Assembly: GCF_019711375.1 (NCBI RefSeq)
Contig: NZ_CP081295.1
Location: 2,145,001-2,209,000, forward strand
Length of the DNA: 64,000 nt
Direction: 5' to 3'
Source of the DNA: Qipengyuania aurantiaca
GTDB taxonomy: Bacteria > Pseudomonadota > Alphaproteobacteria > Sphingomonadales > Sphingomonadaceae
Program-made: the position numbers and the translations under genes
Notes under the pieces: model-generated
Database searches by the model: none
Told to the model about the DNA's origin: nothing
The model's input: the letters and a program-made list of their open reading frames with translations, nothing else
In this document: in pieces, positions 1,363-15,917 of the stretch
How positions within the stretch are numbered: the stretch's first letter is position 1
How the letters are laid out: each line of letters begins with the position of its first letter

Positions 1363-1439
1363 CGCGGGGTGGAGCAGTCCGGTAGCTCGTCAGGCTCATA
1401 ACCTGAAGGTCGTTGGTTCAAATCCAACCCCCGCAACCA
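1363..1439 (+). tRNA. tRNA-fMet (anticodon CAT), CCA encoded
   Basis: A 77-base initiator tRNA starting CGCGGGGTGGAGCAG, with anticodon CAT at 1397-1399, the T-arm motif GGTTCAAATCC and a genomic CCA. The unpaired first position (C against A72) and the rrn-proximal location fit an initiator rather than an elongator tRNA. No terminator follows directly; recombinase-derived sequence runs straight into the 3' half of the gene. Confidence 0.95.
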
Positions 1440-2085
1440 CCATTACAGAACACTCCCTCCGGACAGCCCAGTCGGCGTCATTCAGCGAAGCCGCGTAGGT
1501 CGCCAAATCGACCACATTTGCGGAAATCTCTCCCTCGGGCGCCTCGCCTGGATAAATCGTGACGCTCTGAATGAGCGCTCCGACGACCTCCACGGCCTGC
1601 AATCGAATGGTCTCATCTTCCAACGCCGCGCGAAGGTTCTTCACCTTTGCCTTGAACCGCTGGACAAGGACCGGGTGAGGAAGGACTTTCATTTTGGGAC
1701 TGGCGGTGGGCTTTGCTGTTTCGAGTGCATTCTTTTCGCGCTCAAGATCGGCGAGCATCTTGTGCAAGGTTGGGCTCGCTGAGCTAACAAGCATATTGTT
1801 GGCGAGTGTCGCGATCTGTCCTTCGAGCTCCTTCAACCGCGCCGCGTTTCGGATGTCACTGGCGTCCGCGCTGCGGCTCTGAAGCTCGATTTGCCTGTGG
1901 ACCTTGGCAACGAAGAGCTCGACAAGCTTCGGATCCAGGAGATGGTTCTCGATACAGGAAAGCGCTGCCTCCTCGATATCGCGACGCCGGATCGACAGTG
2001 AGTTGTGGCAGGTACCCCGCTCCCTGTTCCCCGGACAACGGTAGTAATCTTTGCGAGCAATCGTAAACTTCGAGCCGCACGATGC
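1396..2085 (-). pseudogene. C-terminal remnant of a large serine recombinase (integrase)
   Basis: Reading on the minus strand from about 2085, an open frame of about 230 codons begins at SCGSKFTIARKDYYRCPGN and continues through ERGTCHNSLSIRRRDIEEA. This is the zinc-ribbon region of large serine recombinases, followed by the usual basic, coiled-coil C-terminal part (ARLKELEGQIATLANNML). The N-terminal resolvase domain with the catalytic serine and the first CxxC pair of the ribbon are missing, and an in-frame stop lies just upstream near 2117. The last residues (VAGVGFEPTTFRL) are encoded by the reverse strand of tRNA-fMet, and the stop codon overlaps its anticodon. This is the arrangement of an integrase beside its own attachment site. 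It should be inactive. Confidence 0.8.
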
Positions 2086-2098
2086 GCGCTTTGCAGCA

Positions 2099-2302
2099 AT
2101 GCTCGCTTGGGTTGATCAAGATCGCGGCCTCTATCTCATCCCAGACGAGGACGCCGACGAATGGGGAGAGATCTCCTTCAAGTTCGATCGCGGACTCCGA
2201 AAGGTCGATCAGCCTTGGGCTGATGAGGCCGACCGGCAGCGCGGTCTCGCCGAAGCGATGGCCCTGCTCCTGGCTGAAGGGTTCGAGCGCCGGGCCAGCT
2301 GA
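2099..2302 (+). CDS. Possible hypothetical protein or gene fragment, 67 aa
   Basis: An open frame of 67 codons begins just past the point where recombinase similarity ends. The product (MLAWVDQDRGLYLIPDEDAD at its start) is acidic, has no membrane segment and no motif I recognise. The only in-frame start beyond the junction is ATG 2099, with no good ribosome site. It may be the tail of a gene cut by the event that truncated the recombinase, or not a gene at all. Confidence 0.3.
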   Translation: MLAWVDQDRGLYLIPDEDADEWGEISFKFDRGLRKVDQPWADEADRQRGLAEAMALLLAEGFERRAS

Positions 2303-2406
2303 CCCCGGAATGAAGTGAAGTCTCGGCGTGTAGGCCGAGTGAGTTATGAAAATAGATGAGGGAGGTCGAGCTCGGCCAGAGCGGCCTCCCTCGAAGGAAT
2401 AATACA

Positions 2407-2931
2407 ATGAATGCAATTTCTTTGCACCGCCCTCTCGAGGGCGAGCCCATGCTGCGGCCTATCACCCATCGCACGGGTAGCCGCTTCGCCTCACTGCTGA
2501 TCTCTTGCGGCCTCGTCACCGTCGAGACAGTTCGCTTCGACGAACGCATCAGGGGCGGCTTCTTCGAGAGCGAAGATGCCGGAGTGCTGGTCACAGCTAC
2601 CAGCTGCGATCGACCGCTTTTCTGTCACGAGTGTGAGGTTTTGGCGCACTTTGCGCACAAGGATCTTGTCCTGATGCGCTTCGATCCGCTCGAAGGCGCC
2701 TCCTTTGACGTCCTGCTCGAAGGTAGCCAGGCCTGGCAGTGCAACTATCTCGCGTGGGGGCGCGAAGGTGAAGATCTCTGGCTCATTCCCGCACACACCG
2801 AAGGACCCTTCTTCCGGCTGAGCGAGAAGGGGCTCGAGACTTTTCAGGGGGCTCCTTACGAAAGCGGCTATCAGCGCTACGCCGGCATTATCCGCGCAAC
2901 CGAAACTCCCTCGTTCGATGGGAGGTTCTAA
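2407..2931 (+). CDS. Unknown protein, first gene of an accessory three-gene operon
   Basis: A 174-residue soluble protein that I do not recognise. It has a cysteine cluster SCDRPLFCHEC (C-x5-C-x2-C) near residues 66-76 that could bind metal, but no other motif. ATG 2407 is chosen because AAGGA lies eight bases upstream; an upstream in-frame start at 2356 lacks a site. A 9-bp hairpin (2360-2390) ends just before that ribosome site. The stop is 2 bases before the next start, so the three genes 2407-4057 look like one transcript. Position beside the recombinase remnant suggests element cargo or transfer genes. Confidence 0.7.
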   Translation: MNAISLHRPLEGEPMLRPITHRTGSRFASLLISCGLVTVETVRFDERIRGGFFESEDAGVLVTATSCDRPLFCHECEVLAHFAHKDLVLMRFDPLEGASFDVLLEGSQAWQCNYLAWGREGEDLWLIPAHTEGPFFRLSEKGLETFQGAPYESGYQRYAGIIRATETPSFDGRF

Positions 2932-2933
2932 TC

Positions 2934-3557
2934 ATGGCTCAGGTCACATTACAGACTGGCTTGGATAGCGGATGCGAAGAGGATGCACCACGCAACAAGA
3001 TGAGCGTCTTCGTTCATGGCATGTGCGACGCGCATCCCGATTTCGCCTTCTCCCGGTATTGGTACAAACAGCAGGAGAACAGGGAGGGCGTGCGCTCCTG
3101 GCTCGACAAGAAGATGTTCCCCGGAAAAGACCCCAACTTCGGCTACGCAGCCAAGTACGATGTCCTGCTCCCGCTCACGGCTCCCGGCGATCTTGTCAGG
3201 GCCGGGGCGCTTGTCGACCGGTTCGACGATACCCTTCCGCCTTACGAGCATCATGCGATGATCCAGGTGAAGATCATGCTCGACCCCGAAGAGGCTTGGC
3301 ACCTCGGCTTCGAGCGGGTTCGCAGCTATGCGCGGGCGCATTTCGCTCCACGCCTTGCCACGATCTTGATCGCCCATATCCCCGCGATGGGAGGCCTAAA
3401 GGGGCAGGGCAATCACGTTCATTGCGGTGTTCTCTCGCGCGAGTTGAACATCAACGGTTTCGGTGGCGCGTGCACCACCCTGTGTAGCGACCAGGGTTAT
3501 CAAGCTGCCTTGGCTGCCTGGCGCGAACACAAGGAACAGTGGGAGCCGGGCGCATGA
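2934..3557 (+). CDS. Unknown protein with a weak MobA/MobL relaxase-like histidine motif
   Basis: A 207-residue protein. Its second half reads like the third motif of MobA/MobL-type relaxases: a hydrophobic strand ending LIAHIPA, a Gly-rich turn, then NHVHCGVLSREL, comparable with the family pattern aIHxP...N-H-x-H-hhhxxREL. The typical N-terminal motif with the catalytic tyrosine is not evident, so it would be an incomplete or divergent nicking domain. I see no signal peptide or membrane segment. It follows the previous gene by 2 bases and overlaps the next by 4 (ATGA). The relaxase idea is an inference from one motif; another metal-dependent enzyme is possible. Confidence 0.6.
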   Translation: MAQVTLQTGLDSGCEEDAPRNKMSVFVHGMCDAHPDFAFSRYWYKQQENREGVRSWLDKKMFPGKDPNFGYAAKYDVLLPLTAPGDLVRAGALVDRFDDTLPPYEHHAMIQVKIMLDPEEAWHLGFERVRSYARAHFAPRLATILIAHIPAMGGLKGQGNHVHCGVLSRELNINGFGGACTTLCSDQGYQAALAAWREHKEQWEPGA

Positions 3558-15178: not shown

Positions 15179-15225
15179 CCACAATCCAAAAGGACCGTCC
15201 TTCGGGGGAGTGGGCGGCCCGCCAG

Positions 15226-15253
15226 ACCCCCGGCACTTCCTCCCGCCGGGGGT
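15226..15253 (+). terminator. Hairpin between ompW and the AhpD-like gene
   Basis: A perfect 9-bp GC-rich stem (ACCCCCGGC / GCCGGGGGT) with a 10-base loop lies 48 bases after ompW and 26 before the next start. It has no T-run, so it may be a weak terminator, an attenuator or an mRNA-stabilising end. Confidence 0.5.
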
Positions 15254-15278
15254 CATTCATTCAGCGAAGGACAAGACC

Positions 15279-15638
15279 ATGTCGCACACGACTTTCAAGG
15301 ACTGGCCCGCAATGGGAGCCGGGCTGATCCCCGCGATCAAGGAACTCCACAAGGGTGCGCCCGGAGTAATGAAAGCCTTTCGCGAGATGGGCAGCGCGGC
15401 GCACGAAGGCGGCGCGCTCGATCCCAAGACCAAGGAATTGCTCGCGGTTGCGATCTCGGTCGCAGTGCGCTGCGATCCCTGCATCACCTATCACGTCGAG
15501 GGAGCGCGCAAGCACGGCGCGACGCGCGAGGAGATAGCTGAAACACTCGGCCTGGCGATCTATATGGGCGCCGGACCCAGCGCGATGTATGCAGCGCAAG
15601 CCCTCGAGGCCTACGACCAATATACCGATCAGGCATGA
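15279..15638 (+). CDS. AhpD-like carboxymuconolactone decarboxylase-family protein
   Basis: A 119-residue all-helical protein with the AhpD-type redox motif CDPCITYHV (C-x2-C-x3-H). Such proteins act as alkyl-hydroperoxide or thiol-disulphide reductases, so a peroxidase role is more likely than lactone decarboxylation. ATG 15279 has AAGGA upstream. It is read in the same direction as ompW and may share the FNR-controlled transcript if the intervening hairpin is leaky. Confidence 0.88.
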   Translation: MSHTTFKDWPAMGAGLIPAIKELHKGAPGVMKAFREMGSAAHEGGALDPKTKELLAVAISVAVRCDPCITYHVEGARKHGATREEIAETLGLAIYMGAGPSAMYAAQALEAYDQYTDQA

Positions 15639-15860
15639 GGCAAGCGGCTGTGAAGATATGCCGGTCTCGCTCAAAAGGTCCTAGCAGCGATAAGGATCGA
15701 GCAAATTTTGCCTGACGGCAGCTAAACCGATAGGAAGCTCCGAAAGCTGACCGTCGGCTACCGGCCCATATGCGGCCATTTTCGGAATATTTCTCCGCAC
15801 CAACAAGTTCACCGCCGTACGACCGCGTGGTTCGTAAGGCGAAAGCGAGTTCTGCAAAGG

Positions 15861-15882
15861 TCAAATCGAGCCCCCGCAACCA
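15861..15882 (+). other. Decayed copy of the tRNA-fMet 3' end (candidate attR)
   Basis: TCAAATCGAGCCCCCGCAACCA matches the end of tRNA-fMet (1418-1439) at 20 of 22 positions, with the last 12 identical. The rest of a tRNA is absent. Followed eight bases later by a strong terminator, it reads as the chromosomal 3' fragment left when an element entered tRNA-fMet. Confidence 0.6.
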
Positions 15883-15889
15883 AATCAAT

Positions 15890-15917
15890 AAGCCCGCCAT
15901 CCCAGGCGGGCTTTTTT
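15890..15917 (+). terminator. Strong rho-independent terminator
   Basis: A 9-bp stem AAGCCCGCC / GGCGGGCTT with loop ATCCCA is followed by a T-run. It lies eight bases after the tRNA-fMet 3'-end copy and far from any coding end, which suggests it is the original terminator of tRNA-fMet. Confidence 0.88.

Follow-up and report, generated by a model that had tools for sequence, protein, structure and literature searches.

Introduction

Serine-recombinase islands at the ends of tRNA-type genes that carry respiratory cargo, as well as cbb3 oxidase genes on tRNA-integrated elements, are already in print (PMC3146451, PMC8627217). Among the former are the ssrA-specific islands of Dehalococcoides, whose serine recombinase is DsiB and which carry respiratory genes (PMC3146451). 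Here we describe a 14.4-kb island with a predicted cbb3 oxidase module, located at positions 1440-15882 behind the tRNA-fMet gene in a 64,000-nucleotide stretch of DNA (NZ_CP081295.1, positions 2,145,001 to 2,209,000; hereafter the window) from the marine bacterium Qipengyuania aurantiaca. The Dehalococcoides islands resemble the one in the window: their left end holds a serine recombinase gene that runs into the 3' part of the tRNA-like RNA gene, a 20-bp repeat of the RNA 3' end lies at the right end, the repeats have in common a deviation from the RNA gene, and islands stand in tandem, with integrase-less segments kept between attachment (att) sites by accretion. They differ in having tmRNA as their target and a six-gene integration module, whereas the island in the window has a tRNA-fMet behind an rRNA operon as its target, one decayed recombinase and cbb3 cargo (PMC3146451).

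The symbiosis integrative and conjugative elements of Mesorhizobium offer another parallel, with cbb3 (fix) genes on an element at a tRNA 3' end. In that study, 73 of the 79 elements have tyrosine recombinases and the elements are conjugative, in contrast to the 14.4-kb island described here, which has a serine recombinase and shows no transfer genes among the open reading frames (ORFs) scanned (PMC8627217). Literature searches found no paper combining Qipengyuania and cbb3, and none with the peptide string GVGFEPTTFRL. An earlier note, made from the letters of the window alone, had proposed that the cbb3 block and a cassette of unknown genes came in, or were trapped, between the ends of an element inserted in tRNA-fMet. 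In the comparison with relatives reported here, the genus set comprised 60 genomes; G000 designates the genome of the window, the other G numbers its relatives, and L numbers the fetched loci.

Results

Two Ends of One Element Family Bound the Island

Comparison with related genomes confirmed that the island at 1440-15882 is real and that both its ends belong to a single family of serine-recombinase elements. At the window start (1-1439), the 23S and then the 5S rRNA gene precede an intact tRNA-fMet (1363-1439, + strand), the target gene, which was called as tRNA-Met(CAT) by ARAGORN and recovered by Rfam. It has a C1:A72 mismatch, a hallmark of initiator tRNAs. A terminator was not seen directly behind it at 1439 when the sequence was read by eye, as the earlier note had stated. 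The final 12 tRNA bases, CCCCCGCAACCA (1428-1439, + strand), form the core common to the attachment sites, and they are followed by the element left end, CCATTACAGAACACTCCCTCCGGAC (1440-1464, + strand), which is kept in G029 and G007.

A large serine recombinase remnant (1399-2085, - strand) reads into the tRNA, which bears out another observation of the earlier note. The 229-codon open stretch from 2085 to 1399 is 87% identical to residues 329-557 of the 557-amino-acid (aa) recombinase of G029, which in its full form carries the Pfam domains Resolvase, Recombinase and Zn_ribbon_recom. Residues 1-328, and with them the catalytic domain, are gone from the window, and a profile-type whole-genome search extended the likeness to residue 292 only across two stop codons. 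With its recombinase incomplete, the island does not count as an active mobile element. The best-scoring named relatives of the G029 protein are CcrB/CcrC and XisF (NCBIfam), although it is a member of neither group (67-76 bits against cut-offs of 375 for XisF and 900 for Ccr). Recombinase relatives (E ≤ 1e-60) occur in five of the 60 genus genomes, G000 included, and the relative in G013, at 36% identity, likewise overlaps its own tRNA-fMet.

The element right end (15749-15882, + strand) is 91% and 84-85% identical to two places in G029. It closes with a 22-bp tRNA-like arm, TCAAATCGAGCCCCCGCAACCA (15861-15882, + strand), which agrees with the tRNA 3' end in 20 of its 22 bases, in line with the earlier note, and carries CAAATCGAGCCC where the tRNA reads CAAATCCAACCC. 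Over 37-39 bp, G007 and G029 carry stretches 95-97% identical to the final 38 bases of the island (15845-15882), and the second G029 copy of the arm sits inside the 84-85% match to the whole right end. The differences of the arm from the tRNA are common to all three other right ends that were read (G007, and G029 twice), and this indicates that the element itself supplied the fragment, with the exchange falling within or just past the last 12 tRNA bases. Thus, while the insertion at the tRNA inferred earlier stands, the fragment is the element's own arm, and its reading as a decayed or displaced copy of the host tRNA was rejected. A survey with the 134-bp right end as query found matches (E ≤ 0.001) in at least 11 of 397 family genomes, G000 included; this is a lower bound because two candidates per genome were scored, and matches outside the genus were counted rather than read individually.

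Directly behind the arm stands a GC-rich hairpin with a T run (15883-15917, + strand), the terminator native to tRNA-fMet, from which 14.4 kb now separate it. In the second rRNA operon of G000 (L003), an identical tRNA-fMet is followed at once by a closely similar terminator (84% likeness over 69 bp, fragment included), and tRNA-fMet directly precedes a closely similar terminator also in G012, G021, G031 and one locus of G057; the remaining fetched tRNA-fMet loci of the genus have other terminators or elements there. Since a similar terminator adjoins tRNA-fMet elsewhere, DNA must have come between the two in the window. A tRNA-Tyr island was rejected as source of the right boundary, because 15883-16300 has no likeness to tRNA-Tyr. 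The earlier statement that no gene precedes this terminator needs correction, given that a gene for a carboxymuconolactone-decarboxylase-family (CMD) protein (15285-15638, + strand) ends about 220 bp before the fragment.

Occupied Sites, an Empty Site and a Chimeric Joint

Left and right ends of the element occur together in G007 and G029. The occupied site of G007 runs from tRNA-fMet through the element left end, about 1.5 kb, the right arm and the terminator, while the other tRNA-fMet of this genome is empty and aligns with the right-hand junction over 109 bp. Between its intact ends, the G007 remnant (L120, 13419-15077) holds 1.5 kb with a weakly cold-shock-like protein, below the cut-off, and an unknown protein. 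In G029 the order starts with a 49-nt tRNA fragment overlapping a tyrosine integrase gene and continues with the full recombinase and a related three-gene cassette, the right arm, the terminator and a hemN flank, in which hemN is cut to residues 259-449 (87% aa identity). After a further 16 kb or so, the right arm occurs a second time, before a terminator resembling the one that follows tRNA-fMet in the sister genome G018.

Two joints in the window can be placed on this arrangement. The first, at 2086-2087, is a deletion joint at which recombinase residue 329 abuts residue 124 of an unknown 194-aa protein, whose C-terminal remnant follows (2087-2302, + strand); the same two points are about 2.6 kb apart in G029. 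Then come three genes for unknown proteins on the + strand, cas1 (2356-2931), cas2 (2934-3557) and cas3 (3539-4057), working names for the genes of the cassette only, cas1 not being CRISPR Cas1. The second joint (4086-4160) is chimeric, with a likeness to the element interior after cas3 on its left (G029, L163) and the hemN flank on its right (G029, L206), which in G029 lies outside the element. The two G029 parents resemble each other at this joint, sharing about 21 of 26 bases, and the joint motif is rare (four matches in 2.5 Mb of loci plus the window). Based on this joint between two G029 stretches, the island is read as neighbouring att-bounded segments fused by deletion. The earlier proposal therefore holds in so far as block and cassette lie between element ends, where being trapped or merged fits the joint better than arrival as one unit.

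Pfam and NCBIfam name no family for cas1-3 (E ≤ 0.1). Relatives of cas1-3 form a conserved block in 12 loci (L259-L270) of 10 Qipengyuania/Erythrobacter genomes, nine of which loci also have the 194-aa protein; cas2 has relatives in the 12 loci and in two plasmid records, at 56% and 30%. The GC content was 59.1% for the cassette, 62.8% for the module and 62.6% for the neighbours, and GC at third codon positions was 0.70 for the cassette and 0.77 for the module, with 0.84 for core genes; composition appears to be a poor, weak guide to origin.

Both ends, the arm shared among elements, the occupied and empty sites, the two joints and the open frames of the module are direct observations, and they are probably best accounted for by a decayed remnant of an att-bounded array at the 3' end of tRNA-fMet, into which the cbb3 segment was fused by deletion. 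A large serine recombinase element would have recombined its own attachment site with about the last 12 tRNA bases, which would leave the tRNA whole, with the element left end beside it and the right arm before the native terminator. Also within this array, another att-bounded segment would have held, in the lineage of the window, the full module from hemN through ccoSIHGPQON, the FixK/Fnr-type regulator and ompW to the CMD gene. One deletion may then have joined the element interior, past the three unknown genes, to the hemN flank, and another may have removed the catalytic half of the recombinase. We infer this order of events, and arrival of the segment by transfer within the genus, from the arrangement of the joints and their counterparts.

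Position of the rRNA Operon

The rRNA operon of the window lies between rlmB and a serine-hydrolase-family gene at 16265 (placed at 16283 in the earlier note), which matches PF00144, a match that is no sign of drug resistance. Seventeen other genomes of the genus carry this gene at E ≤ 1e-60, and in G031, G012, G058 and G059 no tRNA-fMet was found within the 17-19 kb fetched before it. In G012, rlmB, tRNA-Tyr and the 16265-type gene adjoin, with about 0.2 kb from tRNA-Tyr to the gene; in G031, tRNA-Tyr and the gene are about 9 kb apart, and the interval holds no tRNA-fMet. From these neighbours without tRNA-fMet, the window's operon seems to be at a derived place. The interval from rlmB to the 16265-type gene in relatives was rejected as an empty fMet site. 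The G031 locus (L164, G031:C11:1-18927) has, at 8815-17700, frames that look like glycosyltransferase or cell-surface genes by eye and are absent in G012, perhaps another tRNA-linked island.

Behind tRNA-fMet, G021, G055 and the other operon of G000 have a common synteny, with a transporter-like gene downstream. This gene was present in 20 of the 21 genomes searched, at varying distance from tRNA-fMet or on another contig, and it lies beyond the cco block in G058, G018, G013 and G029.

Alternative Histories of the Island

The island could have been one mobile unit, with cbb3 already between the cassette and the right end of an element that entered in a single step and decayed later. Such a history is unlikely on our estimate, even though both ends of one element family enclose the module, the module frames are intact, and G056 has a cassette relative about 3 kb from its cco cluster. 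Against it, the hemN flank of G029 lies outside the element, beyond right arm and terminator, which points to two fused segments; no other fetched locus has cco between both element ends, and G056 has no recombinase relative at E ≤ 1e-60.

Vertical descent, in which an ancestral module behind tRNA-fMet was kept here and lost in the sister while mobile elements settled around it, appears quite improbable. It draws on the finding of cco behind tRNA-fMet in G036 (contig-limited), G058, G018, G013 and G029. However, the operon of the window is not at the fMet locus common to G021, G055 and the other operon of G000, and the modules behind tRNA-fMet fall on three separate branches of the cco tree. 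Ten core genes compared with 20 relatives place G031 closest to G000 (94.1% aa identity), and this sister genome lacks ccoN at E ≤ 1e-80; among the nearest genomes, G057 is likewise without ccoN, which in G055, G053 and G021 lies elsewhere. The closest relative of the module is in G053, with 91.5% aa identity compared to 85.8% for the core. The cco protein tree (22 rows picked from 35) joined G000 and G053 with a Shimodaira-Hasegawa-like approximate likelihood ratio support of 100 and, in approximately unbiased (AU) tests, rejected G053+G055 (p-AU 2e-6) and G053+G055+G001 (8e-12). The core tree (21 rows) rejected G000+G053 (p-AU 1.6e-5) and, weakly, G000+G031+G053 (0.03). These conflicts, together with the lack of ccoN in the sister G031, lend moderate support to a lateral origin of the module. 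Larger amino-acid excesses were seen in the pairs of G021 with G006, G007 and G043, which suggest that cco may move within the genus more generally.

Several results weigh against fusion of a laterally acquired segment. The synonymous divergence from G053 is not below that of core genes, a point for vertical descent: at third positions, module and core are both 66.5% identical, and at fourfold sites, which are near saturation, the module has 59.7% and the core 65.0%. Among 91 pairs from 14 genomes, the excess of cco over core between G000 and G053 ranked 11th by amino acids and 56th at fourfold sites (median difference -4.0). The excess of synonymous similarity is missing, so no recent donor shows up, and losses from a common older state are conceivable; the lateral acquisition considered earlier is thus backed by the tree conflict and finds no backing in the fourfold sites. 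The core grouping of G053+G055 had a support of 93, and 0.219 in FastTree, and the topology groups for the AU tests were chosen after the first trees had been seen. A tblastn search of G029 (E ≤ 1e-3) found no further module gene in the stretch from hemN to the second right end, and the second segment consequently matches at its two ends only. No genome was found with the island in its earlier, unfused state. The earlier note had looked to a relative with tRNA-fMet, terminator and the 16265 gene in a row; none was found, and tRNA-fMet followed by this gene occurs in no genome examined. The note had also named, as a sign against insertion, relatives with the cco block at the same place, free of recombinase and with a species-like phylogeny, and half of this pattern exists: G036 and G058 have cco directly behind tRNA-fMet, and a recombinase was not found there.

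Chance, or a common repeat giving a 22-bp match and a terminator with no island between them, deserves practically no credit and is already refuted: it has in its favor that merely 20 of 22 bases match, whereas 100 shuffles of the window gave zero matches to the tRNA 3' end at ≤ 3 mismatches, and arm and flanks recur in G029 (twice) and G007 with terminators behind them.

Gene Content of the cbb3 Module

The module appears complete, with ccoN, O, Q and P plus G, H, I and S, of which O, Q, P, H and S are named by position, and all its reading frames are open. On the - strand follow, from the chimeric joint onward, hemN for an oxygen-independent coproporphyrinogen III oxidase (4238-5587; TIGR00538, 340.7 bits, cut-off 324.95), ccoS (5790-5942; 50 aa, a reading frame named by position and length), ccoI for a copper P-type ATPase (5939-8062; TIGR01511, 478 bits, cut-off 397), ccoH (8059-8526; start picked by us), ccoG (8505-10088; TIGR02745, 534.9 bits, cut-off 316.7), ccoP (10075-10986; two CxxCH motifs visible), ccoQ (10976-11140; a reading frame of 54 aa), ccoO (11137-11901), and ccoN for the catalytic subunit of the oxidase (11914-13587; TIGR00780, 775.7 bits, cut-off 583.15). 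A Crp/Fnr-family regulator gene (13667-14416, - strand) comes next, nearest to FixK at 113.4 bits, below the cut-off of 300. The earlier note had labelled this gene fnr, but its product shows no FNR-type N-terminal cysteine cluster. On the + strand, ompW for an outer-membrane protein (14507-15178; PF03922, 151.8 bits) precedes the CMD gene, with similar DNA near cco in two other genera and in G046 as well. No relaxase or type IV secretion gene was present among the scanned ORFs, the scan having left aside ccoH, O, P, Q, S and small ORFs.

A Second cbb3 Cluster and tRNA-fMet as a Recurrent Site

The island does not hold the only cbb3 genes of the genome, given that G000 has a second cluster with ccoN at 1549788-1551461, 81% identical to the island ccoN. 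Judging from sequence similarity, the second cluster is clearly lateral, more so than that of the island: it shares 89.4-92.6% DNA identity over 9-11 kb with G044, G049 and G051, whose BamA has 72-73% aa identity. The two clusters of G000 were rejected as closest kin of each other (p-AU 4e-48). Two genes for Crp/Fnr regulators lie at the second locus (L169, G000:C1:1540000-1559000), and a heavy-metal (copper-type) ATPase is encoded nearby; unlike the regulator of the island, one of the two shows a C-x2-C-x7-C stretch. Genomes with ccoN at E ≤ 1e-80 number 42 of 60 in the genus and 174 of 298 in the family, and 355 of 72,556 plasmid records have ccoN relatives at E ≤ 1e-100.

By hand count, ccoN and tRNA-fMet matches, fragments included, stand on one contig in 16 genomes, six of which, from three cco lineages, have ccoN ≤ 100 kb downstream of tRNA-fMet, at distances of 10 kb (G000), 8 kb (G036 and G058), 15 kb (G018), 52 kb (G029, from the fragment) and 86 kb (G013). 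G012, the sister of G036 and G058, has tRNA-fMet and lacks ccoN. With many of the genomes in pieces, this hand count is suggestive of tRNA-fMet as a habitual cco site.

Other elements, too, have repeatedly used this tRNA gene. Displaced tRNA-fMet fragments of 45-50 nt, 98-100% identical, were observed in seven of the 60 genomes (G002, G014, G023, G025, G028, G030 and G034), 7-41 kb from the tRNA in five of the seven; these islands share the target with the one described here and differ from it in their 45-50-nt fragment as opposed to its 22-bp element-borne arm.

Discussion

Taken alone, the island in Q. aurantiaca is one more tRNA island with respiratory cargo. Our analysis provides exact ends and a decay history for an island carrying a complete high-affinity oxidase, and the case shows how a tRNA-end fragment can be told from an arm that the element itself brought. 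On its gene content, the module should yield a high-affinity terminal oxidase, the second of the genome.

A broader and tentative possibility, which we consider doubtful at present, is that whole cbb3 modules have entered Qipengyuania genomes time and again at the tRNA-fMet 3' end. Att-bounded segments without a recombinase would be moved in trans by serine-recombinase elements having the same right arm as the cbb3 segments, as an exchangeable oxidase cassette, and three unrelated cbb3 lineages, those of the island, of G036/G058 and of G013/G018/G029, would have entered separately. Since sites in the genus are variously occupied, empty or partly collapsed, the trading of cbb3 modules at one tRNA can be tested there.

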